From: a virus
Length of the DNA stretch: 34,066 nt
IMG/VR virus record: IMGVR_UViG_3300050821_009355
Location: 1 to 34,066 of that record
Reading direction: 5' to 3' (one strand)
Shown here: positions 5,647 to 34,066 of the stretch, one piece after another
How positions within the stretch are numbered: the first letter of the stretch is position 1
Layout of the letters: each line of letters starts with the position of its first letter
Notes under the pieces: generated by a model
Database searches by the model: none
What the model was told of the DNA's origin: nothing
The model's input: the letters and a program-made list of their open reading frames with translations, nothing else
Program-made: the position numbers and the translations under genes

Positions 5647-7782
5647 ATGGGAAAACGATTTTTGATTCTAATCTGCTTTCTCCTTGGGTTGGCCAGCCCT
5701 TCGTTTGCGCAGTTCACCACGGTGACGGCCACGGTCCAGGACCCGAACGGCATCCCTTATTCCGGCGCGGTGATGAACGCGATCCTGGTACCCAGCACGG
5801 GCGGCGGATATACGCTAGGCGGGCAACCCTATTCCGGGCGCGTGGGACCCGTGACGCTCGATTCCACTGGCAAATTCACCGCGCAATTTGGCGACGTAAC
5901 GCTGATTACCCCCGGCAGTCCTCAATGGCAAATCACGATCGATTCGGCGGCAGCTACGATTCAACCGCCGCTCGGAACCGGCCCGCAGAGTTTCACCTAC
6001 ACGAGCAGCGGCACCACGATCAGCGGCAGTTCCCCAGTGAGCCTTACCACGGCATTGAACGCTCTCGCGCCGAAGCTGACAAATTTCGCGACTTCTGGGA
6101 CGGTAACGAATGTCTCTGGGACATCTCCAATCGTTTCCTCTGGTGGCACGACGCCCGCCATCTCCTGCCCGACGTGTAATACCACGGTACCGCTCGCTCC
6201 GAACGGGCCGGGAATTCCGCAGCCGAATGGAACAACTTACGATCCCACGAATTTCGGCGCCAAATGGGACGCCCTAAGCGTAGTCGGCTGTTCCGGCACT
6301 GGCGGGCTGTTTGTCGTTACGTGCTCCAACGCGAATTTCAATATCCTAACGGATGTAGGTAAGGTGTTTTGGGGTTCGGGAACGCCGAATGCGACGCCGG
6401 ATGTTCCCGCTACCACGATCAGTACCGTCAACAGTTCCACGCAGGTCACTCTTACGGGCGCCCTTGCGCGTACAATGGTCGCAGGACAGATCGTCTATGG
6501 TCATGATGACACTACGCAAATCAATAACATGTGGGCAGCGCTTCTCACAAATGTGAATTGCGGCCATGCTCACTTCCCGTCTGGTGGAACAATTTTTTCC
6601 TCACAAATCATGACCACGGTTTCCCCGACCTGCACGTTCAATCAAAACAATCTCGGCTATACCCTGGCGGGCGAAGGCCAAATGAGTACGCAGTTTTTCG
6701 TGCCGCCGAACTTTACCTATTTCAGTCCCAGTAAGTGCAGCAATACGAGCATCGGCGCGTGTTTCGGTCCGGGTGCTGCCATTTACAAGGATTTTCAAAT
6801 CAGCGCCGGATTCGATCCCAACGGGGAAATTTACGCGAATACTTATAATGGGTGCTGGTTCCCTCTCGGTTCAACCGGGGCCATGCAGAACATCAACATC
6901 GCTGGTTTCATCGTCCCTGGAACGATGCGTACGGTGTGCGTCAGCACCGGCATTGCCACCATCTCGAATACTTTTATTCAAGCAAGTGGGAATGGAGGAA
7001 GTCCGTGCTCGGCACTGGGGATCGCAGGCGGCGACATCACCGTAGACGTGCTGTACGTGAATTCCGTCTGCACCAATGACGGTGGGGCCATCACGGCAAG
7101 CGGGCCAGACAACAATTTTTACAACGTATTCGACAGCGAAGCCGTGCAGAACCCGATTTTGATTACCGGGGGATCGTCTGATTTTTTTTCTCTCGCCCTG
7201 GGTGACGGCATCAAAGCGACGGGAGCCGGGACACAGGTCCACATTTCCAACAGCGACGTGGTCGAAAACGTTGCCAGCCTTACGAATATGATCACGGCTG
7301 CCGCCGGTGCAACCGTTACCCTCAGCGGATCGCGTTTTTCCAACGTCGCTGCGGGAACCAATTACGTCGTAGGCGTGGATGCGACTTCTACATTCATCGA
7401 TGGCTGCGGAAATACGTTTTCGTCGAATACGGCGACCGCGAATGTTAGCGCTGGCGGAATATTCGTCCCCTGTCCAGGCACGATTTACAAGGGAAGCCCA
7501 TCCACCCCGACCCTGACAGGTACCGGAGCATGCGCCACATTCAGCACGCAAAATGGCACATTGTACTACGGCTCGTTCGCATGCTCGGGAACGACGGGTG
7601 CGGCAACGATCACTATTACGCCGGGCACAACGGCATCTCACGGGTTTCGATGCGCGGCCTCGGATACGACGACTCCGGCGAACACAATTCCCACGGGACC
7701 ATTGGCTACGGGCGGCTGCGCCTTCAGTGCGGCAAACATCGCAAACGGAGACATAATCAGTTTTGAAATGATACCTTTTTGA
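5647..7782 (+). CDS. Secreted tailspike-like protein, pectate-lyase-type beta-helix
   Basis: A 711-residue protein from ATG 5647. Residues 1-21 are a signal peptide ending SFA|QF. Residues about 22-158 repeat, nearly residue for residue, the N-terminal domain of the preceding gene (QFTTVTATVQDPNGIPYSGA, then GSPQWQITIDSAAATI). After about residue 190 the sequence switches to the NFGAKWDA ... DDTTQINNMWAAL pattern that opens right-handed beta-helix tailspikes, with long beta-helical repeats after it. This is the plan of enzymes that bind or cut host polysaccharide; I cannot identify catalytic residues. The two genes form a modular pair with one attachment domain and two receptor modules. Confidence 0.75.
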   Translation: MGKRFLILICFLLGLASPSFAQFTTVTATVQDPNGIPYSGAVMNAILVPSTGGGYTLGGQPYSGRVGPVTLDSTGKFTAQFGDVTLITPGSPQWQITIDSAAATIQPPLGTGPQSFTYTSSGTTISGSSPVSLTTALNALAPKLTNFATSGTVTNVSGTSPIVSSGGTTPAISCPTCNTTVPLAPNGPGIPQPNGTTYDPTNFGAKWDALSVVGCSGTGGLFVVTCSNANFNILTDVGKVFWGSGTPNATPDVPATTISTVNSSTQVTLTGALARTMVAGQIVYGHDDTTQINNMWAALLTNVNCGHAHFPSGGTIFSSQIMTTVSPTCTFNQNNLGYTLAGEGQMSTQFFVPPNFTYFSPSKCSNTSIGACFGPGAAIYKDFQISAGFDPNGEIYANTYNGCWFPLGSTGAMQNINIAGFIVPGTMRTVCVSTGIATISNTFIQASGNGGSPCSALGIAGGDITVDVLYVNSVCTNDGGAITASGPDNNFYNVFDSEAVQNPILITGGSSDFFSLALGDGIKATGAGTQVHISNSDVVENVASLTNMITAAAGATVTLSGSRFSNVAAGTNYVVGVDATSTFIDGCGNTFSSNTATANVSAGGIFVPCPGTIYKGSPSTPTLTGTGACATFSTQNGTLYYGSFACSGTTGAATITITPGTTASHGFRCAASDTTTPANTIPTGPLATGGCAFSAANIANGDIISFEMIPF

Positions 7783-13446: not shown

Positions 13447-13561
13447 TCATCCCCACATCATTAAGCGTTACCTGTTCCTTCTCTCGGAGGACCAAAAAGG
13501 GCATGATCGTGCCGAGCAAGAGCCACATTCCAATCGCGATTTTAGCTGCTAGGGGCATCAT
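13391..13561 (-). CDS. Small membrane protein coupled to the SNF2-methyltransferase gene
   Basis: A 56-residue ORF starting ATGATG at 13561, overlapping the TGA of the upstream gene at 13558 and preceded by GGAGGA. One membrane helix is clear at about residues 6-26 (KIAIGMWLLLGTIMPFLVL), followed by REKEQVTLNDVGM. The strong ribosome binding site and overlap make it a confident gene despite its size. The frame ends at TGA 13391, but see the overlapping ORF at 13446. Confidence 0.65.
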   Translation of the reverse strand: MMPLAAKIAIGMWLLLGTIMPFLVLREKEQVTLNDVGMIDPVPYNWTCTVFGLSLR

Positions 13562-16155
13562 AATTCCTCCGTGAGATTCAGGAGCGTGGGGGATTTCAGT
13601 TTTTGCACGGCCATTTCGGTGTACATGGCGCCGTCCAGAAAATACGAGCGGCAAAGCTCGATGCCGATGGCGCGGCGTCCCAGCTCGACGGCGCACATGG
13701 GCACCGTGCCGATCCCGGAGAAAGGGTCGAGTACGATTTCTCCCGGCATGGAATACTGCGCGATCACGCGGCGCGCGATATCGAATTGCATGGGGCACAG
13801 GTGCATCTGTTTGCCCTTTTGGGCTTGCAGCATGTTCAGCGTGCGCATGCGAGCCACGTCGGTCCACACTTCCGCGCTCCAGGAGGCGGGCTGCAGGAGC
13901 ATGAACGTCACGGGAAGGCGCTGCTTTTCGTCCAGCGATTCGGCCAGGCGCACGTGCTGCTCGAAACTGTAGATATTTTTCAGCGTGTATTCGCGGAACA
14001 TCTTGAAAATCGTGGCGTGCGGGATGCCTTCCAGGTCTTCGGGCGCGAGCGGGCGGTCGCCATTCGAGCGGGTAAATCCGTGGGCGTCCACCTGCCAGCG
14101 GCCGCGCGTGTATTCTTTCTTCGATTTCACGACGGGCGTATCCGCGTAACTGCGCTCCGTGCTCGTGGGCGGTTTTCGGAAAAGCATTAGGTATTCCGGC
14201 ATGCCCACGCCCATCTTGGTCGCGTCCTTGCACTGCTCGGTCCAGCCGAGGCGGTAGGTCTGATTGTTTTCCCGCACCACGTCCGTGACGATGGTTTTCA
14301 TGCCCAGGTAGCCGAAGCCGTGCCGCGTGTAGTGCGCGATGCAATCCGCGTGCAGCGGATAGACCGTCTGGAAACCGAGGCCCGTGAGACCGCCGGGAAC
14401 GATGCGGTCCTTGACGTGAATCACGGCGAGCCTGCCAGGACGCAGCGCGCGGAACAGGTGCGGCGTCAGAAAATCCATTTGCTCGAAGAAATGCGCGTTC
14501 GATTCGGTGTGGCCGAAGTCTTGATAGCTCGGCGAGTATTCGTACTGCGTCGAGAAGGGAATCGACGTGAGCACTAGATCGATCGAGGCGTCGGCGATGG
14601 ACGGCATTTCCTCAATGGCGTCGTTTTGGATGAGGCGGTAATTTTCCCCGGTAATTTCGACGCGCTCGGTGGAAAGCGTGCGATGCATGGCTTCCATGTT
14701 GTTCCTTTGCGAGAGCCCGTACTCGCGGATGATCTCGCTCATTTTGGCGGTTTGCTGCTTGTAGCGGTCCCACTTGGCAAAGAGCACGTCGCGAATGCGC
14801 TTTTCCGTGCTGGCGTAGATCAAATCGATGCGTACGGGCTGGGCTTGCAGGAAGCGGTGGATCCGGTGCAGGGCTTGAATCCAATCGTTGAATTTGAAAC
14901 CGATGCCCACGAACACGGCGCGATGACAGTGGTACTGAAAATTGCAGCCCGCGCCGGCCAGGACGGGCTTCGCGGCCAGATTGCGCAGGCGCCCTTCGCT
15001 AAAATCGATAATGATTTGCTCGCGTTCCTCGATGGGCTGCGCGCCGTAGACGCTGGCGGTGTACAGGAGCTCGGATTCGATGGCTTCGCGTTCGGCCTCG
15101 AGGTCATGCCAGAGAAGAAAATGCTCGCCGGGCGCTTCGTCGACAATCTCACGCATCTTGCCGATGCGCGCGAGCAGCGTGCTGCGCTTTTCGCGCGCCG
15201 CGTCCGTGACGCCGTGCGCGGCGTCGCGAAACATGCGGAATTGCCCGTCGCGTTCTTTTCCTCCGCCCGCGGCATCGGATACTTCGATGACGTGCTCGCG
15301 GATTTCCATTTCGGGAAGCGAGTAGCCTTCGTCGCTGTAACCTAGGTCGGACGGCTTTTGCAGGAAAATGGCCCACGAACTAACCCAGGTCCAGAAATCA
15401 TCCGCGTGGTGCGCGTGCAGGGTCAGCTTGTCGGCTTTCGTGGAATCGCGCTTAAAAAAGCGCGTCTTGGCTTGGGAAACGTCCATGATGCCGAGATAGG
15501 CGGAGTAGGCCAGGAGCTCGATGTATTCGTTCGGGTCCGGCGTGGCCGTGGCGACGAAGCGGTATTTCACCGTTTCGAAGGCGCGCATGAATTCGCGATA
15601 CGTTTTCGTTCCGCCGAAGGATCGCAGGATGGCGGCTTCATCCAGACTGGCCATGGCGAACTGCGCGACGTTGATTTTTCCTTCGCGCACGCTTTCGTAA
15701 TTGGTGACGAAGATGGGCTGCGTCTTGATGTAGTTCATCTGGCGCACGTCATCATCGGTGCGCACGAAGCGCGTTTCGATGCCGAGTTTCAGAGCGTCGC
15801 GGGCAAACTCCTGGCGCACGCCGAGCGGACACACGATCAATGACTTTGCTCCTCTTACCGAGGAGCAGATTTGCCGCGCGAGTTCCAATTGCATCAGCGT
15901 TTTGCCCAGGCCGAACGAGGCGAAGATGGCGCGACGCCCGCCGCGCGCGGCCCAGGCCACAACGTCACGCTGGTGCGGTTTCAGGGCGGGATGGATGGAA
16001 CCGATTTCGACGGCGATGCCGTGATCCTTGGCTAGGGTGATCTTTCTGCGGATGAATTCGCGGTAGGCTTCCGGCGATTGGATAGCTGGGGCGCCGGATG
16101 AGGTCCCAGCGGATTGCACGGTGGTCGCTACGGCCAGTTCTCGATTGATTTTCAT
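13558..16155 (-). CDS. SNF2-type helicase fused to a beta-class DNA methyltransferase
   Basis: An 865-residue fusion. The N-terminal two thirds is an SNF2/superfamily 2 motor: motif I ASFGLGKT (79-86), DEAA box (172-175), TATP (203-206), and motif VI QALHRIHRF (427-435). The C-terminal third is an amino-methyltransferase with motif IV (DLVLTSIPF, 526-534) before motif I (DPFSGIGT from residue 810), the beta-class order. The catalytic S/D-P-P-Y/F tetrad reads SIPF here, so activity may be altered. Helicase-methylase fusions in phages, such as P1 DarB, protect incoming or replicating DNA against restriction; this is a plausible role. Four bases separate it from the upstream small gene, and no good ribosome binding site is visible. 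Confidence 0.85.
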   Translation of the reverse strand: MKINRELAVATTVQSAGTSSGAPAIQSPEAYREFIRRKITLAKDHGIAVEIGSIHPALKPHQRDVVAWAARGGRRAIFASFGLGKTLMQLELARQICSSVRGAKSLIVCPLGVRQEFARDALKLGIETRFVRTDDDVRQMNYIKTQPIFVTNYESVREGKINVAQFAMASLDEAAILRSFGGTKTYREFMRAFETVKYRFVATATPDPNEYIELLAYSAYLGIMDVSQAKTRFFKRDSTKADKLTLHAHHADDFWTWVSSWAIFLQKPSDLGYSDEGYSLPEMEIREHVIEVSDAAGGGKERDGQFRMFRDAAHGVTDAAREKRSTLLARIGKMREIVDEAPGEHFLLWHDLEAEREAIESELLYTASVYGAQPIEEREQIIIDFSEGRLRNLAAKPVLAGAGCNFQYHCHRAVFVGIGFKFNDWIQALHRIHRFLQAQPVRIDLIYASTEKRIRDVLFAKWDRYKQQTAKMSEIIREYGLSQRNNMEAMHRTLSTERVEITGENYRLIQNDAIEEMPSIADASIDLVLTSIPFSTQYEYSPSYQDFGHTESNAHFFEQMDFLTPHLFRALRPGRLAVIHVKDRIVPGGLTGLGFQTVYPLHADCIAHYTRHGFGYLGMKTIVTDVVRENNQTYRLGWTEQCKDATKMGVGMPEYLMLFRKPPTSTERSYADTPVVKSKKEYTRGRWQVDAHGFTRSNGDRPLAPEDLEGIPHATIFKMFREYTLKNIYSFEQHVRLAESLDEKQRLPVTFMLLQPASWSAEVWTDVARMRTLNMLQAQKGKQMHLCPMQFDIARRVIAQYSMPGEIVLDPFSGIGTVPMCAVELGRRAIGIELCRSYFLDGAMYTEMAVQKLKSPTLLNLTEEL

Positions 16156-16909: not shown

Positions 16910-18682
16910 TCACGCCTTCTGCACCATGACTTTCATTTCGGGGACTTCTTGGTAGCCGTCGGATTCCAGTGTGAGAAAACCCATTTCGGTTAGTTTGTTG
17001 AGCGGCTTGTACAGGTTCGTCGTGGGCTGGTGGACTCCCGTGCGGCGCTTGAGTTCCTTCTGGACGGCAGGGCCGTTGCGCGGAGATTTGAAAAAGCCCT
17101 CGTGGATCAGTCGCGCGATGCGGCCGTTCAGCTTCGAATCGTCCATGTCCACCGTCGGGCGCTCGACCTTGACGCGGAGCTCCGGCCGGCGGGCGATCAG
17201 CTCTAGCACTCCGGGGTCTTTTTCGAATTTCGCCTTGATGTAGGTGCAGATGTAGTCCAGTTGGGGAACGGTCAGGCTGAGACCGTTGCCGCTTTTCACG
17301 GCGGTAACGGCGTCGGGGGAGAATTGGGTTTGCGGGGAATCTTTTTCCGCCGGAGCGACGGCACTGCCGCCAAATCCTCGAATAGCGCCACGATCAGCGT
17401 CTGCGCCGACATGCCCATCTGAATCTCCAGGGCGATTCGTTCGATCCGCGTCTTGATCGCGCGCTGTTGGTACGGCGTCAACTGGCGGAATGGGTTCACT
17501 CTCTTCATCGGCGGGCGGCTCCTGAATCTGCACCTGCAACAACTGGTGCGGCTTTGCTTCGGGCTTTCGACTCTCGACTCTCGACTCTTGACGTTCCTTG
17601 AACGCCCTCAGCATTTGGCGGGCGCTGGTGACGCTTTCCTCGCCCTTGGCGATGGCTTGGGCGTGCAGCTCGCTCTCCATCCAGGCGGGTTGGACGTAGC
17701 ACTTCGTGACGCGCGCTTCGGGCGTGCGCACGAAGAATTCCCCAATTTTCAGCCGCGCGATGTCCACGGGGCGCAGTTGCGGCGTGAACAGGCCGGCGAG
17801 CGATCGATCGATTTCGTGCATTTCGGTTTGCACGCCGATGCCGACAATGGAGCAAGCGCGGAGCATAATCTTATCCACGGCGGCCATGTCTTGAGAGTCG
17901 AGCCACATGAAGTTTCGATTCGCGCCAGCTTTTCGTACAAGAGTCTCGCAGGCCATTTTAACCGGGGAGTTTTTCCCTTGCGGCACGAAGTCTTGCGCTT
18001 CCGGGACGATGACGCGGACGCCTTTTTCATGTTGGTAGACCCATTCCATGACGCTGCGGATGACGAGCGCCTGAGTTTCCATCGCGTATTCGCGCAGGTC
18101 CATCACGTTCAGACCGGGATGGAGCGTCAGCTTTTTGGTGTAGGGCAGGCGCGCCAGTTGCGGCATGACGATGTCGAAATAGGCTTTCAGGGACGTGTAG
18201 ACTCCGGCGTTGATCCCGCTGACGGGTTTGCGGCTGTACTTCCATTCCCTTTTCTTTTTCTTGCCGCGGCCTTTTTCGACGTACCCGCCTTCGCCGCCTA
18301 GCAGTGCCTTGATATTGGCGTGGACGTCGGCCAGCGTCTTCGCGCTTCGGGGATCCTCGCAGCAACGGATGATCCACGCTTCCTCGAAATTCAGTTTCCG
18401 CTGTTGGCTCGCTTCCAGGATCGATTTGACCCAGCGCCAGAGCGGCTGCTCTTCGTCGTTCGTGGGCTCGGAGAAATACGGCGGGATCATGCGCCCGGTG
18501 AGGAAACCGCCTTCGCCCTGCTTGGTGATGAACGCGACGGCGCGCAATTCACCGCGAAAGGCGATGGCCTCGAGCGCGGTCGTTTTCCCGGAGAGTTGCG
18601 TCTGGCCAAACCACGCCAGGTGCCCCGTCTCCGGGATTTCCACCCGTTTCCCAGTCCCGATTTCCCATCCGAGAAGAATCAT
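16910..18682 (-). CDS. FtsK/HerA-like P-loop ATPase, candidate genome-packaging ATPase
   Basis: A 590-residue protein. Walker A is GQTQLSGKT (26-34); Walker B is VRVIVPEAQDF with Glu228 in place of the usual D-E; a sensor-like block NRNFMWLDSQDM lies at 255-266 and R293 may act in trans. This is the HerA/FtsK layout used by packaging ATPases of non-tailed membrane phages such as PRD1 P9, although those are near 230 residues. Residues about 350-465 are a disordered linker, part of it encoded by AGTCGAG heptamers (QESRVESRK, 365-373). The last 120 residues look like a winged-helix domain (LNGRIARLIHEGFF ... LTEMGFLTLE), which could bind viral DNA. ATG 18682 overlaps the upstream stop. Confidence 0.7.
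   Translation of the reverse strand: MILLGWEIGTGKRVEIPETGHLAWFGQTQLSGKTTALEAIAFRGELRAVAFITKQGEGGFLTGRMIPPYFSEPTNDEEQPLWRWVKSILEASQQRKLNFEEAWIIRCCEDPRSAKTLADVHANIKALLGGEGGYVEKGRGKKKKREWKYSRKPVSGINAGVYTSLKAYFDIVMPQLARLPYTKKLTLHPGLNVMDLREYAMETQALVIRSVMEWVYQHEKGVRVIVPEAQDFVPQGKNSPVKMACETLVRKAGANRNFMWLDSQDMAAVDKIMLRACSIVGIGVQTEMHEIDRSLAGLFTPQLRPVDIARLKIGEFFVRTPEARVTKCYVQPAWMESELHAQAIAKGEESVTSARQMLRAFKERQESRVESRKPEAKPHQLLQVQIQEPPADEESEPIPPVDAVPTARDQDADRTNRPGDSDGHVGADADRGAIRGFGGSAVAPAEKDSPQTQFSPDAVTAVKSGNGLSLTVPQLDYICTYIKAKFEKDPGVLELIARRPELRVKVERPTVDMDDSKLNGRIARLIHEGFFKSPRNGPAVQKELKRRTGVHQPTTNLYKPLNKLTEMGFLTLESDGYQEVPEMKVMVQKA
17296..17508 (-). CDS. Overprinted ORF inside the ATPase linker
   Basis: A 70-residue ORF in another frame of the same strand, from ATG at 17508 with AGGAG ten bases upstream. 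It reads MKRVNPFRQLTPYQQRAIKT, then RIERIALEIQMGMSAQTLIV, a natural-looking helical protein. In the ATPase frame the same bases give low-complexity Asp/Gly/Arg-rich sequence. So either a nested gene has been overprinted on the linker, or the linker was formed by extension through a former separate gene. Seen: composition contrast and ribosome binding site. Function unknown. Confidence 0.45.
   Translation of the reverse strand: MKRVNPFRQLTPYQQRAIKTRIERIALEIQMGMSAQTLIVALFEDLAAVPSLRRKKIPRKPNSPPTPLPP
17565..17592 (-). repeat. Heptamer array inside coding sequence
   Basis: On the - strand this reads as AGTCGAG, AGTCGAG, AGTCGAA, the same family as the intergenic arrays. Three units equal 21 bases, so the ATPase frame is kept and the array encodes part of its linker. 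Confidence 0.7.
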
Positions 18683-26591: not shown

Positions 26592-27416
26592 ATGATTTTT
26601 GAGACCACGCCGGGATTGCTTTACGCCGCGCCGCTGCTCGGCGGCGACGAAGGCACGGAACAAACCGTGGCGATGCTGCGCTCGCTCGTCGATGACGCGT
26701 GGAAAGACCCGTTCGTCAATCGCACGGCCATCGAAATCATCCGCAACGCGGGCGTGGCTCCCTTCGATCAGTGGGGCCAGATTCGCGCCATCTACGATTA
26801 CGCGCGCTCGTTTTATTTCGTGAACGATCCCATCACCAAGGAAGCGGTGCGGCCCACGCGCGAGCTCCTGCAACTGAAGGCCGGCGACTGCGATGACATC
26901 AACGCCAATATTTTGCCGGCGCTGCTCGGCACCATCGGATTTGAAACGCGGCTCGTGACTGTGGCCAGCGACCCGAACGTGCCCGATTATTTTTCACACG
27001 TGTACTGCGAAGTTTTCATTGACGGCGATTGGTACCCGCTGGATGCCGCGCGCCCCGGAGCCGTGATCGGCGTGGCTCCGGCGCATTTTTATCGTCGCGC
27101 GTGGTGGAGTCTTACGGACGGCTCGCACGGCGACTATCCCGTCGATGGAACCGGAATGCATGGATATCGCCCGCAAGTGCTGCGCGGGTTAGGAAACGTC
27201 ACGTCGGATTTGTCCGCGATTTTCGCGGATGCCAGCGGCGCGCTGCGTTCCGTGGGCGGGCAAAGCGTGCAGAACGTGCTCGGCCCATCGATCGGGCCGG
27301 GCGGCGCCGCGATGCAGGTTCCGCCCGCGCCGCAGCCGTTTCTTTCGTCCGGGCTTGGCGAACTGCTCGTCGTGGGCGCGATTCTCGGCGGCATCTGGCT
27401 GTTGACGAGAGACTGA
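26592..27416 (+). CDS. Transglutaminase-like cysteine peptidase with C-terminal membrane anchor
   Basis: A 274-residue protein. The catalytic triad of the transglutaminase/papain-like fold is visible: Cys100 in AGDCDDINA, His136 in YFSHVYCEV and Asp151 in WYPLDAARP. Residues about 255-271 form a membrane helix (LGELLVVGAILGGIWLL). Proteins of this fold act as peptidases, peptidoglycan amidases or cross-linkers; here it is probably a virion membrane protein that processes capsid or host-envelope components. It opens the + strand membrane-protein cluster. Its only leader is the GNRA hairpin and GCTAAATCTG, with no Shine-Dalgarno. Confidence 0.75.
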   Translation: MIFETTPGLLYAAPLLGGDEGTEQTVAMLRSLVDDAWKDPFVNRTAIEIIRNAGVAPFDQWGQIRAIYDYARSFYFVNDPITKEAVRPTRELLQLKAGDCDDINANILPALLGTIGFETRLVTVASDPNVPDYFSHVYCEVFIDGDWYPLDAARPGAVIGVAPAHFYRRAWWSLTDGSHGDYPVDGTGMHGYRPQVLRGLGNVTSDLSAIFADASGALRSVGGQSVQNVLGPSIGPGGAAMQVPPAPQPFLSSGLGELLVVGAILGGIWLLTRD

Positions 27417-27431
27417 AGGGAGGAAGCGTGC

Positions 27432-27587
27432 ATGGCTATGATTCTTTGGCCGATCCACTCCAGCGTGAAATGTCCGCGATGTAACCGAAAAACGCGCGGC
27501 AAGCTTTTTCAACCTAGCCATCATCCGGTGCGCGTTTGCGAAGGATGTCGGCGCGAATGCTACGCGACATTCAAACGCGTTCGATAG
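27432..27587 (+). CDS. Small four-cysteine zinc-ribbon protein
   Basis: A 51-residue ORF with GGGAGGAAG before ATG 27432. It holds CPRC and CEGC separated by 18 residues, the two knuckles of a zinc ribbon, plus a basic C-terminus. Transcription or nucleic-acid role likely. Confidence 0.65.
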   Translation: MAMILWPIHSSVKCPRCNRKTRGKLFQPSHHPVRVCEGCRRECYATFKRVR

Positions 27588-27594
27588 GAAAAAA

Positions 27595-28548
27595 ATGTCT
27601 TACGCGCGGCTCACAACTCGGAATCCCAACGGACTGCATCCTAGTCTGCGCGGCGGGCTCGGTTTCCTCGGCGATACCGCGAATCCCACGCTGACCGCCG
27701 AAGCCGCGCTGCAGCAAGCCATTTCCGCCTACGGTTCCGCGCACCTGAATCCCAAACAGTTTCAGGACCCCGGCTGGCTTTCCCAAGCGGCGAACGTGAT
27801 CCAATCGACGCAGTTTTCCGTCACCGGCGGATTTGGTCCCGATTGCGCCGGGCAAACCGCGCAGCCGCTGAATCTGTTCAAGACGGCCAGCGGGCTGGCG
27901 CTCAGCACTGGCGCGGCCACTACGGGAATCCTGGCTAGCACGCACGTGATCGCCGCCGCGGCCGTGCCAGTGATTGGTTGGGTCGTAGCCGGTGTGGGCG
28001 CCATCATTTCCCTGATCGGTGCCATTTTTCAGCATCACGCGCAGGCCGAGGCGCGCGATTTACAATTCGGCTGCTCGGCGATTCCTGCGGTGAATAACGC
28101 GTTCGCCGTCATTCGCCAGGGCGTGCAGGACGGTACGATCAAGCCCGCCGACGCCGCGGCCGCACTGCCGCAAATCTACGAGAACTACATGTCCGCGGGC
28201 GGCGCGTCCGGTTCGGCCACGGGGCCCGGCGCGATTCCGAGTGGCGGAAAAGCCATCAACGATTCGCCGTGGTGTAATTCCAACTGCGAGCTGAGCGTTG
28301 TGCTCTTGGGAATGGTTTTTTACTGGCAGGCGCAGTTTCAAGCGCTCGCAGCGCAGGCAGCCTATGAATCGCAGCAAGCGGCCGCCGCGTCCCAGCCTTC
28401 GGCGACATCGCCCGTGTCGCAGGGCGGCAGCACGGTTCCGAATCTCGTTTCTTCGCCGCACACCCCAGGCAGTTTTTCGCTTTCCGAAATTCCGGCGTGG
28501 GGATGGATCGCGCTGGCGCTCGCTGGCGCATGGGCGGTAGCGGGATGA
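27595..28548 (+). CDS. Multi-helix membrane protein, virion-like
   Basis: A 317-residue protein. The N-terminal TRNPNGLHPSLRGGLGFLG motif is shared with the protein at 28603. A hydrophobic hairpin occupies about residues 108-145 (HVIAAAAVPVIGWVVAGVGA, then IISLIGAIF), and a further helix closes the protein (EIPAWGWIALALAGAWAVAG). A stretch ELSVVLLGMVFYWQAQF near 245 is also hydrophobic. The middle and C-terminal parts are Ala/Gln-rich. Ribosome binding site AGGAAA. Likely a major internal-membrane protein. Confidence 0.6.
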   Translation: MSYARLTTRNPNGLHPSLRGGLGFLGDTANPTLTAEAALQQAISAYGSAHLNPKQFQDPGWLSQAANVIQSTQFSVTGGFGPDCAGQTAQPLNLFKTASGLALSTGAATTGILASTHVIAAAAVPVIGWVVAGVGAIISLIGAIFQHHAQAEARDLQFGCSAIPAVNNAFAVIRQGVQDGTIKPADAAAALPQIYENYMSAGGASGSATGPGAIPSGGKAINDSPWCNSNCELSVVLLGMVFYWQAQFQALAAQAAYESQQAAAASQPSATSPVSQGGSTVPNLVSSPHTPGSFSLSEIPAWGWIALALAGAWAVAG

Positions 28549-28601
28549 TCCGTTGGATTCATGATCGTTGGTTTTGGATGAAATGGTTTTCTTGGAATTG
28601 A
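28545..28601 (+). CDS. 18-residue tryptophan-rich micropeptide
   Basis: ATG 28545 overlaps the previous stop (ATGA), and its TGA (28599-28601) lies one base before the next ATG, so it exactly fills the gap. The product MIRWIHDRWFWMKWFSWN has five Trp, two Phe and several basic residues. Coupled at both ends; a second Trp-rich micropeptide is at 9837. Expression is unproven. Confidence 0.4.
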   Translation: MIRWIHDRWFWMKWFSWN

Positions 28602-28602
28602 A

Positions 28603-28941
28603 ATGGCATACGCGCGGCTGACAACTCGAAACGTGAATGCGCTGCATCCGAATTTTCGCGGACTAGGCGCCTACGCCGCGCTGTCCACGCAAAACCGCAA
28701 TGGCCTAAGTCCGAATTTCAGAGGATTGGGCGACACTCCGCTGACGAATATTTCCTTCGGCCCCGGCGGGCAGTTTTCCATCAGCACGGTCACGACGCCC
28801 ACGCAGGAAAGCCTTTCGGATCAAGTCCTGACGTGGCTCAGCGAATCCACATTCGTGCCCGGCATGCCCAATTCGGTGTTTGCCATCGGCGGAGGTTTGC
28901 TTGCGCTCGCCTGGCTCTTTGGTGGGAGGCGACGGCGATGA
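28603..28941 (+). CDS. Virion membrane protein with PGxPN C-terminal anchor (type 1)
   Basis: A 112-residue protein. Two N-terminal repeats of TRN/TQN...GL(H/S)PNFRGLG occur at about residues 6-22 and 29-43. After a short beta part, the C-terminus has LTWLSESTFVPGMPNSVFAI, a hydrophobic helix GGGLLALAWLFGG and RRRR. The motif PGxPN, helix, basic tail is shared with the next proteins. It probably anchors the protein in a membrane with the N-terminal part exposed. Confidence 0.7.
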   Translation: MAYARLTTRNVNALHPNFRGLGAYAALSTQNRNGLSPNFRGLGDTPLTNISFGPGGQFSISTVTTPTQESLSDQVLTWLSESTFVPGMPNSVFAIGGGLLALAWLFGGRRRR

Positions 28942-29084
28942 TGGTCGGAAACCGTAGCGGGAGAATATCCGCTCCTTATCTCGTCGAGCCTCTCAGATCG
29001 CGTACTTACGTGACGTGGTTCATCGACGCAGAGGTACGTGTACGTGGGCCGCGTCCCGACCGATTGGATGATCTCACAAAATGA
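28938..29084 (+). CDS. Small basic hypothetical protein
   Basis: A 48-residue ORF from ATG 28938 (ATGA overlap with the previous gene), ending in a stop overlapping the ATG at 29081. Tightly coupled on both sides. No membrane segment; SAPYLVEPLRSRTYVTWFID looks like a strand-rich domain. No family recognised. Confidence 0.5.
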   Translation: MMVGNRSGRISAPYLVEPLRSRTYVTWFIDAEVRVRGPRPDRLDDLTK

Positions 29085-29797
29085 GCTACGGCATGCTCAA
29101 TTCGCCGCTGCCTGGACTCACCGTTTCGTCCACAGGCGAACGCCGCTGCGGGATGCGTGGCTATCAGCCTGGTGCGCATGCGCTCTTGGGCGACGATTCC
29201 ATCGACTACACGGACATGACTTCGCTGATCGATCCCTATTCCGCGCCCGTCGATACCGGCATCCTGACGGATTTGCCGCTGCCGAATCAGCTTTCGCCGT
29301 CGCTCGAGTCTCTCTATCCCACGATCGTGGGCACGGAATTCACCAGCAACGGCGACGGTACCTACACGAACATTCAGACCGGGCAAACCGTGCCGTACTC
29401 GATCGCGGAACAAATCACGCAAGCCACGGCTCCCGTTGCGGTGGATACCACGCCCACGGGGCAAGGCCCGGAAGTGACCATTCAGGATCCCAATACGGGA
29501 GCCACTTCTTCGATCAGCACGAACAACCTGACCGCCGCCGCGCAAGCGCTGCAGGCCGCCGGCCAGCTCGTGAACGCTGCCGGGCAACTCACGTCGCAGG
29601 GCCGCGCGCTCCTGAACGGCGGAAATTTGTATCGGCTGCCGCCGTCGACGGGAATTTCGGGCGCAATGTCTTCGCTTACGTCCTGGATGACGGGCTCGAC
29701 GCTGTTTCCCGGCGTGCCGAATCTCGCCGTGATCGGCGGGGCGGTAGTTCTGGTGATGGTTCTGCCATCGATCATGCAGAGGAAAAAGAGGCGATGA
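29081..29797 (+). CDS. Virion membrane protein with PGxPN C-terminal anchor (type 2)
   Basis: A 238-residue protein. GYQPGAHALLGDD near residue 27 is shared with the protein at 30244. The middle is Thr/Gln-rich with beta and helical stretches. The C-terminus is MSSLTSWMTGSTLFPGVPN, a membrane helix LAVIGGAVVLVMVLPS, and MQRKKRR, the same module as at 28603 and 29794. Likely a spike- or capsid-linking membrane protein. ATGA links to both neighbours. Confidence 0.7.
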   Translation: MSYGMLNSPLPGLTVSSTGERRCGMRGYQPGAHALLGDDSIDYTDMTSLIDPYSAPVDTGILTDLPLPNQLSPSLESLYPTIVGTEFTSNGDGTYTNIQTGQTVPYSIAEQITQATAPVAVDTTPTGQGPEVTIQDPNTGATSSISTNNLTAAAQALQAAGQLVNAAGQLTSQGRALLNGGNLYRLPPSTGISGAMSSLTSWMTGSTLFPGVPNLAVIGGAVVLVMVLPSIMQRKKRR

Positions 29798-30219
29798 TCG
29801 CGATCAATCATCCCGCTCTGGGCATGAATCCGCATCAAAGCGGCGGTGACTGGACACCTATTTACGGCCCGGGTAGCCGCGCCGTGATGCCGCAACCGTT
29901 GCAACCGGTTCGTTCCGTGCAAACGACGCAGCCGGTCGCGCCCCCCGCGCCCGCGCCGGCGACAGTTCACGCTTTGCCGCCGGCTCCGAGCGCGACTCCG
30001 CCGCAGCCTTTGCCCATCGATTTGCAAGCTGCCGTTCCCGCATCGGCCGGCGCGACGGGCGGCACAGACGCCGCAGCCGCCGCTGCGAGTGCTCCCTTTT
30101 CGTTGAGCGACTGGCTGACGGAGGAAACGCTTTTTCCAGGCTATCCCAACGGACTCGTCGCCGCTGGCGGCGTGATCGTACTGGCTTGGATTATGGGCGG
30201 AAAGAAAGGGAGACGCTAG
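29794..30219 (+). CDS. Virion membrane protein with PGxPN C-terminal anchor (type 3)
   Basis: A 141-residue protein. Residues 30-90 are Pro/Gln/Ala-rich and extended, then FSLSDWLTEETLFPGYPNGL, a hydrophobic helix AAGGVIVLAWIMGG, and KKGRR. A long flexible stalk with a C-terminal anchor suits a capsid-membrane tether. ATGA overlap with the upstream gene. Confidence 0.7.
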   Translation: MIAINHPALGMNPHQSGGDWTPIYGPGSRAVMPQPLQPVRSVQTTQPVAPPAPAPATVHALPPAPSATPPQPLPIDLQAAVPASAGATGGTDAAAAAASAPFSLSDWLTEETLFPGYPNGLVAAGGVIVLAWIMGGKKGRR

Positions 30220-30234
30220 TCCCGGTAAGGGACT
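30218..30234 (+). repeat. Short GGTAA-loop hairpin
   Basis: AGTCCC pairs with GGGACT around a GGTAA loop. The stem sequence differs from the other copies although the loop is identical, which supports selection on structure and loop rather than primary sequence. It begins within the stop region of the previous gene and lies nine bases before the ATG at 30244. Confidence 0.7.
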
Positions 30235-30243
30235 GCTAGAAAA

Positions 30244-31083
30244 ATGTTGTTCCCGAATCATCCCGCGTACGCCGAAATCAGGCCCGGCATGGGGTTGGCC
30301 TACATGCCTGGCGCGAACGCGCTCGGCTATCAGCCCGGCGCGCACGCGCTGCTCGGTTACCATTCCGGCGCGCACGGCAACCTGGGCGATTTTTCGTCCA
30401 GCATGGAAAGCGCGGCGGTGGATTCGGGATACTCACAGAGCGATCTTGATTTGCTGAATTCGCTGGGAGCCACGGATCAGGATTTGGAAAACCTGATCAA
30501 TAAAAATATAACGCTTACCGCGTTATATGCCGAGTACGGCGTCACGATTCCGTCCGGTTCGACGGCCACGGCGAATTCTTCTTCATCGACGCCGATCATG
30601 TACAACGCGCCGCCGCAAGGACCATCGCCCGCCGCCGCGGGGCAAGTGCCCACGGGCAGCCAGGTTCATTACGTCGCGGGTTGGTCGCCAATTCACGGCA
30701 GCATTTCTGACGTGCAATCGGCCCTCAGCACGAAACTGCCGTCCTATGGAATGCAGCTTGTGGGGTTTTCTTCCACCGGCAGTTCGCTCCTGGGCATCGG
30801 CACAGCGGGATTCACGGCGCAGGTCGCGATCACCGGAGTGGGCTTCGCGCTCCTGAGCGACGTGCAATCCATCCTCGTGACCATCGTGCAAAGCGTGATC
30901 GGCACGGGCCATCTGACCACGAACGAAATTTCCTTGGTTTCGACGCCGTCGACGCCGGTGGGCACGACTCCTGCATCCGATTCGAGCCCATTGGCATGGA
31001 TTGAAAACAACGCGATCTACATCGCAGGCGCGGTGGCGGCCTTGGTGTTGCTGAATAATTTCACGGGCGGCAAACGCCGCTAG
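30244..31083 (+). CDS. Virion membrane protein with GYQPGAHALLG repeats and C-terminal anchor
   Basis: A 279-residue protein. Residues about 16-50 hold repeats GLAYMPGANALGYQPGAHAL, then LGYHSGAHGNLGD, related to the 29081 protein. Residues about 145-235 resemble a domain with VHYVAGWSPIHGSISDVQSA and an internal hydrophobic stretch (FALLSDVQSILVTIVQSVIG). The C-terminus is NAIYIAGAVAALVLLNNFTGG followed by KRR, without PGxPN. Probably part of the same membrane set. Confidence 0.65.
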   Translation: MLFPNHPAYAEIRPGMGLAYMPGANALGYQPGAHALLGYHSGAHGNLGDFSSSMESAAVDSGYSQSDLDLLNSLGATDQDLENLINKNITLTALYAEYGVTIPSGSTATANSSSSTPIMYNAPPQGPSPAAAGQVPTGSQVHYVAGWSPIHGSISDVQSALSTKLPSYGMQLVGFSSTGSSLLGIGTAGFTAQVAITGVGFALLSDVQSILVTIVQSVIGTGHLTTNEISLVSTPSTPVGTTPASDSSPLAWIENNAIYIAGAVAALVLLNNFTGGKRR

Positions 31084-31141
31084 CGAAAGGCCCCGGCTCG
31101 CACGGCGAGTGCGGCGCAAAAAAGGGGCGCTTTCGCGGTAA
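31083..31141 (+). repeat. GNRA-loop hairpin with nested insert and GGTAA tail
   Basis: GCGAAAG/CTTTCGC outer stem, G bulge, GCCCC/GGGGC inner stem. The loop is replaced by a 29-base insert containing CGCAC-GGCGA-GTGCG, shared with the copy at 24733 and followed here by an A-rich run. The tail GGTAAAGGAG supplies the ribosome binding site of the gene at 31156. Confidence 0.8.
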
Positions 31142-31155
31142 AGGAGAAAGAGACG

Positions 31156-31368
31156 ATGACGATGAAGGCAACAGAATTTGAGGCGGGCGATGAAGTGACC
31201 GTCAATTGCGACGGCGTGGACGTGGACGGCGTCGTGCGCACGGTTCAGGCGGCAAAGAATCTGGTCGACGTGCAGGTGTACAAGCAAGGGCACCTGAAAC
31301 ACGGGCTGACCGTTCCTTTTCCGCCCGAACAGGTAAAACCGCGAGGCAAGAAAGCGGCGTCAGCCTAA
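31156..31368 (+). CDS. Small SH3-like or beta-barrel protein
   Basis: A 70-residue protein from ATG 31156 with AAGGAG upstream. The alternating strand pattern (AGDEVTVNCDGVDVDGVVRT, then LVDVQVYKQG) is typical of small SH3-like barrels. Basic C-terminus (PRGKKAASA). It may bind nucleic acid or other virion proteins; no family assigned. Confidence 0.5.
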   Translation: MTMKATEFEAGDEVTVNCDGVDVDGVVRTVQAAKNLVDVQVYKQGHLKHGLTVPFPPEQVKPRGKKAASA

Positions 31369-31382
31369 CCGCGAAAATCCTC

Positions 31383-32000
31383 ATGCGAACGAAAAAGAAA
31401 AATCCGGCGGAACTGGTGCTCATGAGCGCCAATCCTGCGGAGCTCGTTCTCATGGGCGCGAATCCCGGCGCGCGCGCGAGGCGGTCGCGCAAGCGAAACA
31501 GTAGCGCGCTCGCCGGTGCGACGGAAGTCTGCGAAGAGTTTCGTGGCTCGCCATGCCCCACGGTGGAAACGTACGTCGAACCGGAACCGCGGCCGGCGAG
31601 CCTTGGCCAGCTTGGCGTGCTCGTGGAACTTCAGGTGAAACGCACCAGTGGCTGGAAGTGGGGCGTTCTGGATTTCGTTGGGAAAGACGTGCAGGTCGCG
31701 GGCAACGTGGGGCATTCGCAGATTTATTTCATCGGCGGCGACCAGAAAATCACGCGCGGCCAACTTTCGCATCTCGGCGTGGACAATTCGAAGGAAATGA
31801 TCGACCTGGGCGAGTGCATGGCCATCGCCTACCGCGCGAAGAAAATGCAGGTCAACGGCATCGACGCGGATTACGAGCACAAGTTTGGAGACGTGTCGGG
31901 CCGTCGTCCCCGGCTGATGTACGACCGTCGCGGCCCTCAAGGTCGGCTTTTCCTTGTGGGCGGGGAATACACCATCGAACCGGAAGGAATCGTGAACTAG
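31383..32000 (+). CDS. Hypothetical protein with tandem NPAELVLM repeat
   Basis: A 205-residue protein from ATG 31383. Residues 7-28 are two tandem ten-residue repeats, NPAELVLMSA and NPAELVLMGA, then NPGARARRSRKR, a short basic stretch. The rest is a beta-rich domain (GVLVELQVKRTSGWKWGVLD). The N-P motif followed by basic residues also appears in the 32864 protein (RHRNPF). This may be a shared assembly signal. Function unknown. Confidence 0.55.
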   Translation: MRTKKKNPAELVLMSANPAELVLMGANPGARARRSRKRNSSALAGATEVCEEFRGSPCPTVETYVEPEPRPASLGQLGVLVELQVKRTSGWKWGVLDFVGKDVQVAGNVGHSQIYFIGGDQKITRGQLSHLGVDNSKEMIDLGECMAIAYRAKKMQVNGIDADYEHKFGDVSGRRPRLMYDRRGPQGRLFLVGGEYTIEPEGIVN

Positions 32001-32003
32001 AAA

Positions 32004-32038
32004 GCGAAAGGCCCCGGTAAGGGGCGCTTTCGCGGTAA
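32004..32038 (+). repeat. Bulged GNRA-loop hairpin with GGTAA tail
   Basis: The canonical form, identical to the copy at 8956 in stem, bulge, loop and tail start. The tail continues GGTAAGGAAGTC, so it provides TAAGGA, a Shine-Dalgarno match, before the ATG at 32047. Confidence 0.85.
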
Positions 32039-32046
32039 GGAAGTCA

Positions 32047-32769
32047 ATGCTAGCGGGAGCCGATCACGGGATCAGCAAGGCCAACATCGTCACGGGCGCG
32101 GCGAAAGATCTCGATTTGTGCCTGAAAATCAGCCGCGAGCGCATGCGCGCAGGTCCGCGCAAGGGCTACAACATTTTCGGCATGATCGAAACGATTTATT
32201 TCGAGCCGGATCGCGATTGCCGCATGCCGCTTGAAAAAGCGGCCAAGGTGGGGCGGCGGCTGTATTGGCCAGAGAATGGTCCGATTCTCGCCGTCAGCGT
32301 CCCGGAAAGCGATCTTTTAATTGTGTCGCGGCTGCCGCTGCGCCGAGGTCTCGCCTGGCTGCCAGACGTTCCCGATCCAGCGCGCCCGGCGGAAAATCCC
32401 TATGACGTGGACCAGCACGGGCAATCGCATCTCACGCCCGACGAAAAAGAGCACGAAGCGCCGAAGTTCAAGCAACTGCTCGAGGAAGTGGCCAGCGCCA
32501 AGTTTCGGAATTTCCTGATCTTTCATCCCGTGGCGCAAATCATCGCCATTCCCACAGGTTCAAAAAAGGCGACCTGGGCGTCGCTTGGCAGCGTGCGTCA
32601 ACCGATTTCATCGTTCAGTAGTTTCGACGGCACGAAGATGGCGATGCTCGTCGATCCGTACACGGGCGAAATGTTTTTGAAGGGCGGCCGCGCCAGCATC
32701 TCGGATCATCTTGATCCGAGTGCGGTGCCGCAAAAGGCGGCCGCGCCCTTAGTGAATTTGGGAGCCTGA
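32047..32769 (+). CDS. Hypothetical 240-residue protein
   Basis: A soluble protein with a helical start (NIVTGAAKDLDLCLKISRER), a beta-rich middle (PILAVSVPESDLLIVSRLPL) and further blocks (AKFRNFLIFHPVAQIIAIPT). No signal peptide or membrane helix. It follows the hairpin at 32004 and abuts the next gene. No family recognised; probably a virion or assembly protein by context. Confidence 0.5.
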   Translation: MLAGADHGISKANIVTGAAKDLDLCLKISRERMRAGPRKGYNIFGMIETIYFEPDRDCRMPLEKAAKVGRRLYWPENGPILAVSVPESDLLIVSRLPLRRGLAWLPDVPDPARPAENPYDVDQHGQSHLTPDEKEHEAPKFKQLLEEVASAKFRNFLIFHPVAQIIAIPTGSKKATWASLGSVRQPISSFSSFDGTKMAMLVDPYTGEMFLKGGRASISDHLDPSAVPQKAAAPLVNLGA

Positions 32770-32770
32770 C

Positions 32771-33334
32771 ATGGCAATCGTCAGACTCGTGAATCCGACG
32801 TATGACGCTCGCCGGCGTCGCGCGGAATCGAGACACCACAACGGCGGGGAAGGAGGTTTTCCTATGGCACGTCACAGACATCGCAATCCCTTTGCCGCCG
32901 GCAGCATCAATTCGCTGGCGGTGAAGGTGGTGGGCGGTTTCGGTGGGCTCCTCGCCGCGTCTGCGGTGCCCGCGATGGTCAGCCCGACACTCAATACGGG
33001 TTGGGCCGGCGCGGGTATGGCCTTCGGCGTCGCGTTTCTGGGCGCATGGCTGCTCAATAAAATGAGCGTCAACGCCAGCGAAGGTTTTCTGATCGGCGGG
33101 GCGGTGCAGGGCGCGTCCCGTGTGGTCACGATTCTGACCGGCAGAACGCTGGTCAGCGCTTCGCTCGGGCAGTACGGGCCGCTGAACTTCACCATTCCCA
33201 CGCCCGCGTATCAGCAACAGCCGGCGATCGCCGCGTCCGCGTCCAAGACCACGCCCGCCAAGGGCGGCGCTCAAAGCGCCGCTACGATGGGCATGCTTGG
33301 CCCGCGCCGCGCATTCTCGAAGTACGTCAGCTAA
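32771..33334 (+). CDS. Membrane protein with two in-frame starts
   Basis: The long form begins at ATG 32771 (187 residues); a second ATG at 32864 is preceded by an excellent GGAAGGAGG and gives a 156-residue form starting MARHRHRNPFAAG. The ribosome binding site favours 32864 as the main product; the 31-residue extension is basic (DARRRRAESRHH). Hydrophobic stretches lie in about residues 55-100 of the long form (VKVVGGFGGLLAASAVPAMV, then GMAFGVAFLGAWLLNKM), and the C-terminus is Ala/Thr/Gln-rich. Likely a second major virion membrane protein next to the capsid gene. Confidence 0.6.
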   Translation: MAIVRLVNPTYDARRRRAESRHHNGGEGGFPMARHRHRNPFAAGSINSLAVKVVGGFGGLLAASAVPAMVSPTLNTGWAGAGMAFGVAFLGAWLLNKMSVNASEGFLIGGAVQGASRVVTILTGRTLVSASLGQYGPLNFTIPTPAYQQQPAIAASASKTTPAKGGAQSAATMGMLGPRRAFSKYVS

Positions 33335-33345
33335 CCAGTGATCGG

Positions 33346-33401
33346 CCCGCCGTCGCCAAACTTCGGCTATGGCGGGTAAACGCTCTCAGCTAAACGCTGA
33401 G
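33346..33401 (+). promoter_or_regulatory. Hairpins in the leader of the capsid candidate
   Basis: CCCGCC (33346-33351) pairs with GGCGGG (33371-33376), followed by GTAAA, and CTCAGC (33385-33390) pairs with GCTGAG (33396-33401) around a TAAAC loop. AAAGGAG and AAGGAAA then precede the ATG at 33421. The GGGTAAA after the first stem echoes the GGTAA tail of the repeat family, but the fold differs. Confidence 0.5.
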
Positions 33402-33420
33402 GGAAAGGAGACCAAGGAAA

Positions 33421-34066
33421 ATGAAAAGTCTGAATGCAAAACGATTCGCTCATTTGCCGGAGATTTCGGCGCACGAAATCGGCAGACCCCGTTTCCGCCT
33501 GCGCAACATGCTGGCGGCCGGGCTCGGCGATTTCGTGGTTCAGCCGGAATGGGACTACTACGGCGTGGCGGTGTCGACGGCGGTTGTGAAGCAAACGCTG
33601 TTCTCGATCGTGCAGAACAATAACTTCACCATCACCGGCGGCGCGACCGTGGCAAAAACCCTGCAAATGACCAGCATGGTCCAGCCAAACCAGTTACAGG
33701 CTCCCGAGCGGATGCTCGTTCGTGGAATCTGTTGCGTTTTGGATAACCTGTGCAACCAAACCGACGCCATCAAGTTCGGAAGCCAAACGATCGTGAACTT
33801 CTTCATCTCCACGAAGTCGTTCTTCGTGATCGCGCACTTCATGAAACTTCCGGCGGGCGGCGGCCTCTGGGCGCAGCAATTCGGCGCCACGGCGGCCACC
33901 ACCATCATCGGGCCGGTTGGAAACGGCATGCCATCGGAGCACCAGGGATTCCGCTTGACCGATCCCGGATGCGACGGCACTCCCGGCATCGACCAGTTTC
34001 CCAACATCGACGGCATTTTGATCGCGCAGCAACAGGCGTTCAAAGTGGAAGTCGATCCGACGCTGG
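33421..34066 (+). CDS. Double-jelly-roll-like major capsid protein (partial, putative)
   Basis: The frame is open from ATG 33421 to the window end (215 residues seen, no stop), so the gene is truncated by the boundary. It is beta-rich with TLFSIVQNNNFTITGGATVA, then TLQMTSMVQPNQLQAPERML, LVRGICCVLDNL and VIAHFMKLPAGGG. The block T-x-x-M ... P-x-Q-L-x-A-P-x-x-x-L-V-R-G-I resembles the beta-strand region of double-jelly-roll capsid proteins of PRD1/PM2-type phages, as I recall their alignments. No search was possible. Position after membrane protein genes and, in a circular genome, before the capsid-like trio supports a capsid role. Confidence 0.6.
   Translation, partial: MKSLNAKRFAHLPEISAHEIGRPRFRLRNMLAAGLGDFVVQPEWDYYGVAVSTAVVKQTLFSIVQNNNFTITGGATVAKTLQMTSMVQPNQLQAPERMLVRGICCVLDNLCNQTDAIKFGSQTIVNFFISTKSFFVIAHFMKLPAGGGLWAQQFGATAATTIIGPVGNGMPSEHQGFRLTDPGCDGTPGIDQFPNIDGILIAQQQAFKVEVDPTL

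Follow-up and report, generated by a model that had tools for sequence, protein, structure and literature searches.

A shared C-terminal module, probably a membrane anchor, on consecutive proteins of an uncultured virus related to Salisaeta icosahedral phage 1

Three consecutive proteins of an uncultured virus (A, B and C in Table 1) end in one C-terminal module, which is probably the membrane anchor of proteins of a tailless, internal-membrane dsDNA phage related to Salisaeta icosahedral phage 1 (SSIP-1). The module is conserved, recurs in separate lineages and is confined, in the sequences searched, to elements of this kind, and the virus has homologues of SSIP-1 proteins. The DNA analysed (henceforth referred to as the window) comprises positions 1 to 34,066 of the IMG/VR virus record IMGVR_UViG_3300050821_009355, which, judging by the IMG dataset numbers, probably originates from soil. 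An earlier note on this DNA had described the ends of A, B and C as W...PGxPN followed by a Gly-rich helix and RRRR, RKKRR or KKGRR, and translation agrees: A terminates in WLSESTFVPGMPNSVFAIGGGLLALAWLFGGRRRR, B in WMTGSTLFPGVPNLAVIGGAVVLVMVLPSIMQRKKRR and C in WLTEETLFPGYPNGLVAAGGVIVLAWIMGGKKGRR. The fourth protein, D, terminates in WIENNAIYIAGAVAALVLLNNFTGGKRR, that is, in a helix and KRR with no PGxPN, as had also been noted. The mechanically called ORF for the C region is longer (29038-30219) than that in Table 1, where the start chosen gives the short overlap with the preceding stop.

Table 1. Positions in the window of the genes and C-terminal modules discussed in the text.
Feature	Position	Strand	Description	Remark
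P-loop protein	16910..18682	-	candidate packaging ATPase (GQTQLSGKTT ... RVIVPEAQDF)	motif only
Transglutaminase-like protein	26592..27416	+	own C-terminal helix	
Protein E	27595..28548	+	317 aa; A-type N-terminal motif; C-terminal IPAWGW helix, no basic end	
Protein A	28603..28941	+	112 aa; two N-terminal LxTxNxNxLxPNFRGLG copies, linker, C-terminal module	translation
Module of A	28816..28938	+	W...PGMPN, Gly-rich helix, RRRR	
Protein B	29081..29797	+	238 aa; N-terminal GYQPGAHALLG motif, C-terminal module	
Module of B	29669..29794	+	W...PGVPN, helix, RKKRR	
Protein C	29794..30219	+	141 aa; 4-nt overlap with B; conservation in relatives limited to the tail	
Module of C	30091..30216	+	W...PGYPN, helix, KKGRR	
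Protein D	30244..31083	+	279 aa; N-terminal GYQPGAHALLG repeats; C-terminal helix and KRR, without GxPN	
Putative anchor of D	30988..31080	+	PLAWIENNA-helix-GGKRR	
NP-rich protein	31383..32000	+	C-terminus GGEYTIEPEGIVN	start codon guessed; tests took codons from 31395
Candidate major capsid protein	33421..34066	+	215 of about 254 aa, cut at the window end	

The module-bearing genes lie in a block that runs from the transglutaminase-like gene through E, A-D and the NP-rich gene to further genes and, finally, the candidate capsid gene. LxTRNxNxLxPxxRGLG or GYQPGAHALLG recurs near the N-termini of E, A, B and D (27595-27660, 28603-28740, 29150-29200 and 30290-30390), and GYRPQVLRGLG, a motif of the same kind, follows the catalytic domain of the transglutaminase-like protein (27180-27200); the proteins may all dock, or be processed, at this recurrent motif. 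A small NP- and Arg-rich membrane protein is encoded directly before the capsid gene (32771-33334), with equivalents in L091 and L096 and a protein resembling it in L095. Elsewhere in the window we found an 865-aa protein in which helicase motifs are joined to a DNA methylase domain (13558-16155, minus strand) and two spike-like proteins with a common N-terminal domain (3546-5639 and 5647-7782), both of which start with apparent Sec signal peptides, an unusual feature in cytoplasm-made particle proteins. The P-loop protein matched no family below E 0.01 (its terminase match reached merely E 0.045), and no portal, large terminase or tape measure protein was recognised among the window proteins scanned. 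Rfam and ARAGORN gave no matches over the window, PHROGs gave nothing below 0.05 for ten proteins of the 26592-34066 block, and blastn of the block against phage records gave no match. Because relatives read through the join of the window end (34066) and start (1), the record is apparently a circular genome that was cut open within the capsid gene; about 140 bp seem absent in comparison with L010.

Scans with five proteins yielded a window group of 11 genomes (the window and ten relatives of 34-37 kb), together with a more distant virus, UViG 3300050821_014220 (L050, L096, L097), and a shorter contig (L055); UViG 3300020582_000003 carries the transglutaminase-like gene although one pattern search overlooked that record. 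The 11 genomes hold 32 modules, three per genome except for one genome with two. Both the W and GxPN are kept in every one of these modules, whereas the P before G is kept in just 21 (11/11 for the first protein, 8/11 for the second and 2/10 for the third), so that the strict motif is GxPN and not PGxPN as originally described. In D, GxPN is absent in 10/10 rows, and an (I/L/F)-E-x-N-A stretch, the helix and the basic end are kept. We scanned 28 sequences (summed length 485,676 bp, two of them overlapping) for the pattern and found the module in all window-group genomes and exclusively in transglutaminase-linked blocks; reversed sequence gave no matches, triplet-shuffled sequence gave one match in five repeats, and the module is thus more frequent than chance. 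When C was compared with its relatives by BLAST, the conserved part was the last 39-51 residues (54-71% identical). The W..N segment had the lowest pN/pS ratio in A (0.28, compared to 0.37 upstream and 0.38 in the helix and tail) as well as in B (0.36, compared to 0.42 and 0.76, respectively), which indicates that the turn is preserved and that the helix needs mainly hydrophobicity. A has its N-terminal repeat in common with E and its tail in common with B and C (BLAST), and therefore reads as a chimera of an E-type N-terminus and a B/C-type tail. The basic ends might have been a by-product of Shine-Dalgarno overlap with the next gene; this was ruled out, since CGN codons for Arg outnumber AGR codons 65 to 22 in the last six positions, and since the basic ends remain where the next start is >100 nt off.

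The earlier note had proposed a profile search for the module, and such a search recovered it from transglutaminase-encoding elements of one further virus and of three Acidobacteriota genomes. The profile (A9) was built from 25 rows, of which 24 were window-group tails and one was a tail of the virus record G006, and was searched against eight genomes or records. The Acidobacteriota genome G264 (5.3 Mb) did not contribute to the profile, and all of its 107 candidates were scored; three matches fell below E 0.001 (1e-6, 3.8e-4 and 4.4e-4), all at 82.8-96.5 kb of contig C10. The same region holds, by tblastn and in largely the same order, the transglutaminase-like gene, the capsid candidate, E and several other structural-block genes, and one module copy lies in the ORF immediately upstream of a spike-like gene. 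Since the structural-block genes there adjoin TruB, MacB-like and rhomboid genes, the 14-kb region looks like a provirus; with the whole chromosome scored, no tagged protein was found below E 0.01 outside it. In G006, a tail that was not part of the profile matched at E 4.3e-6 and reads SGLPD. Across the phylum the scoring covered at most 18 candidates in each genome, which makes absence softer here than in the fully scored G264; 4 of 396 Acidobacteriota genomes gave an A9 match at 0.01 or better. Three of these (G264, G197 and G181) are transglutaminase-linked; the match in G308 lies in an unrelated ORF, looks like chance and was discarded. In both G197 and G181, the transglutaminase-like gene (missed in G181 at a search threshold of 1e-8 and found in a separate search) is followed by three consecutive ORFs that end in W(or F)...PG(L/V)(K/R)N-helix-basic. 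Overall, the further elements display PGxKN, PGxRN, GIPN and SGLPD, and these variants give a general motif [P/A/S/G]-G-hydrophobic-[P/K/R]-[N/D] at the helix start, from which GTWNVPN (G006) and SAVIPN (G264) deviate. With copies in four further elements (G264, G006, G197 and G181), the module is not confined to the window paralogues as a simple duplication. The provirus-like regions in genomes of this phylum point to Acidobacteriota as the host of the relatives, as distinct from the window virus itself. Among the matches listed, no paper dealt with the module or with Acidobacteriota viruses of the SSIP-1 type; a paper on viruses of this phylum (PMC11924767) reports isolates that are tailed.

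The link to SSIP-1 comes from the transglutaminase-like and NP-rich proteins. The window transglutaminase-like protein gave 33.7 bits with Pfam Transglut_core (cut-off 23), and C100, H136 and D151 are invariant in 10/10 rows of its alignment. Although tblastn of this protein and of the P-loop protein against phage records gave no match, distant transglutaminase-like proteins reached SSIP-1 (5e-9 and 3e-14), the only named phage, and two unannotated fecal contigs. SSIP-1 gp34, annotated as structural, matched the transglutaminase-like profile A4 at 1.7e-8, and gp43, also structural, matched the family of the NP-rich protein at E 1.6e-4 over 57 proteins; the two homologues, which are two genes only, occur in the same order in the window and SSIP-1. 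The window virus thus appears, by protein homology, to be related to SSIP-1, which is listed among membrane-containing phages in an excerpt of PMC6356626 and given in part of PMC6260650 as 100 nm, T=49, with a circular dsDNA of about 44 kbp (43.8 kb) and 'single jelly roll?'. A viral-membrane role for the tailed proteins, as proposed in the earlier note, fits with this, since the relative is a membrane-containing phage. In a hydropathy scan, 10/57 SSIP-1 proteins contained a hydrophobic C-terminal segment, including the structural gp34, gp41 and gp53, which also finish in a helix, and gp46, which is probably a false positive; Pro directly precedes the segment in five. Comparable values were obtained for four comparator phages (11/98 selected proteins, five with Pro), so the Pro found before the helix in 5/6 window proteins examined is a common feature and not a diagnostic one.

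In SSIP-1, and likewise in the neighbourhoods of L062, L063, L064/L098, L094, L095 and L099, the transglutaminase-like gene is present but the module was not found, and the product of this gene is therefore not the dedicated partner of the module. That it acts as the peptidase of the tails, as once suggested, is unlikely for this reason and because it has a C-terminal helix of its own and its SSIP-1 homologue is annotated as structural. In the genome G004, the transglutaminase-like protein and the product of the following gene share a different tail, SPVVLIGLGLVGFMVM, and this suggests lineage-specific anchors, each used more than once. The G004 contig concerned (C231, here L095) is a compact 10.4 kb, with a replication-initiator-like gene (presumably of the HUH type), the transglutaminase-like gene and a capsid-like gene (capsid profile E 3.4e-4). 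A transglutaminase-like gene is also present on L062, L063 and L064, MAG contigs of Acidobacteria and Calditrichaceae that are possibly SSIP-1-like or domesticated elements. Behind it, in L063 and L064, lie paralogues whose N-termini read LTGY(L/V/I)(Y/H)EVP or similar; some of these end in poly-Arg without a membrane helix, and in L064 capsid-like genes come after the paralogues.

We consider that the module would work as follows. The Trp-led, often acidic short stretch would lie at the membrane surface, the [P/A/S]-G-x-[P/K/R]-[N/D] turn would cap and start the single Gly-rich membrane helix, and the Lys/Arg end would pin the far side of the membrane, the whole presumably staying uncleaved in virion proteins. 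Every anchored protein would contribute its own N-terminal part, with RGLG or YQPGAHALLG motifs, likely the capsid- or partner-facing parts, and long flexible linkers, so that several kinds of capsid-to-membrane linker could use one anchor. Anchored proteins would collect in the inner membrane of the host and bring the shell into register with it, as proposed for P3 and P6 of PM2. Topology is subject to opposite pulls: the positive-inside rule puts the basic end in the cytoplasm, in which case the N-terminal domains need export, yet they lack signal peptides, and this counts against the anchor reading. So do, with respect to its motif, the lack of GxPN in D and our failure to find GxPN in SSIP-1.

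A less probable variant, to which we give little credence, is that PG-phi-(P/K/R)-N tails are a transferable address tag of SSIP-1-like viruses that selects viral-membrane proteins, with a recogniser such as the transglutaminase-like virion protein or a capsid vertex component, and possibly with processing at the motif. It is about equally doubtful that the basic ends are the functional part, binding packaged DNA or a packaging factor inside the membrane vesicle while the helix merely holds them. The poly-Arg ends without a membrane helix next to the transglutaminase-like gene in L063 and L064 are in line with this, as is the retention of basic ends while codons vary; however, some tails in G197 and G181 are only mildly basic (MKQKQVVG, MSRKSAAPPVQP or MVRKASHKVIA), and 3-5 positive charges would have to be translocated.

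A slightly smaller probability still attaches to a processed sorting signal. On this view the tail would be cut at the motif, either by an exosortase/rhomboid-type enzyme of the host or by the transglutaminase-like protein of the virus, which would then transfer or set free the part N-terminal to the cut. The likeness on which the earlier note drew is real: motif, helix and basic cluster at the C-terminus of several proteins follow the tripartite plan of LPXTG, PEP-CTERM, GlyGly-CTERM and PGF-CTERM tails (PMC3237569 and PMC11980579, in excerpt). In addition, the window group, G264, G197 and G181 show a many-to-few pattern, with the module on at least two proteins by one transglutaminase-like gene, and the G264 chromosome has one exosortase-family protein (PF09721 match). 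However, substrates of those four systems have N-terminal signal peptides and a dedicated enzyme, and neither was found in the virus. Kyte-Doolittle windows over the first 40 residues of 31 A-D proteins of nine genomes (leaving out four C proteins with uncertain starts; L018 has no C) detected no N-terminal hydrophobic segment in the carriers, the highest 15-residue value being 1.09 as opposed to above 2.2 in spike-like controls, and PF09721 had no match in the virus records G000 and G006. Further, the positions before G (P, A, S, T, G) and before N (P, K, R) vary, the transglutaminase-like protein occurs without the motif, no other G264 protein bears the tag below E 0.01, and none of seven proteins exceeded a CTERM cut-off in NCBIfam (LPXTG_anchor reached 14.8 vs 15.9, on the helix and tail only). 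A PEP-CTERM search also gave no matches, but its controls were equally silent and it is not counted as absence. Cleavage at PGxPN is hence not supported: there are no signal peptides, no viral exosortase match, no conserved P before G and no tag elsewhere in G264. The sorting-signal reading is thus weak, and tripartite CTERM-like tails on viral proteins need not be sorting signals. Finally, recent duplication of one gene, by which common descent would explain the shared tails and leave the motif without a special role, was already disfavoured and is very improbable: B does resemble the relatives' C proteins upstream of the tail too, but A has an E-type N-terminus and only the tail in common with B and C, a copy lies just upstream of the spike-like gene in G264, and constraint is strongest in the W..N segment.

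The candidate capsid protein gave no further indication of lineage. Its best profile match in SSIP-1 was E 1.7 (profile A10), nothing significant was obtained with the P23-77, PM2, HCIV-1 and PRD1 proteins tested (best 0.029), tblastn against phage records gave none, the distant capsid candidate was likewise without an SSIP-1 match, and no match of the capsid profile to genome contigs was confirmed. A first structural model had a pLDDT of 27.7 and a second, all-beta model was weak (pLDDT 51, pTM 0.54). With the latter, Foldseek returned nothing at E 0.001 or better from the PDB and one match from BFVD, and VIA-align gave Z up to 6.3, with jelly-roll proteins among the top rows. Since both the model and the structural matches are weak, no virus lineage is claimed.

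Overall, the results describe an uncultured virus group, with provirus-like relatives in Acidobacteriota, that is tied to SSIP-1, the only named cultured phage to match the transglutaminase-like protein in these searches, and they provide, in the GxPN-type tail, a sequence signature for locating more such viruses. SSIP-1 differs from the window virus in its host (Salisaeta, not Acidobacteriota), in that the GxPN module was not found there and in that the candidate capsid protein and ATPase of the window have no sequence match in it; like the window, it has, in this order, a transglutaminase-like protein (gp34), several helix-ending proteins, gp43 with an IDERGILN end (compare the NP-rich protein in Table 1) and more structural genes. 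VP13 and VP10 of the internal-membrane virus HCIV-1 have no common motif or detectable homology with the module carriers but are likewise membrane proteins whose transmembrane helices are C-terminal; PMC6414509 locates them beneath pentons or proposes that they position the capsomers. The closest working analogue, judged by its layout, would be P3 of PM2 (Corticoviridae; a chain of PDB 2w0c), which with P6 is suggested in part of PMC6356626 to be a template for capsomer registration. P3 is one gene of marginal sequence similarity (the best of 98 selected proteins of four phages with profile A9, E 0.009), and no similarity to the PM2 capsid was found; nevertheless, this 104-aa protein has, like the module, just one helix at its C-terminus, with GVPQ before it and a short basic end after it (FGVPQK-helix-RGNK). 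An internal-membrane phage may thus fix several different proteins to its membrane via one reusable anchor.
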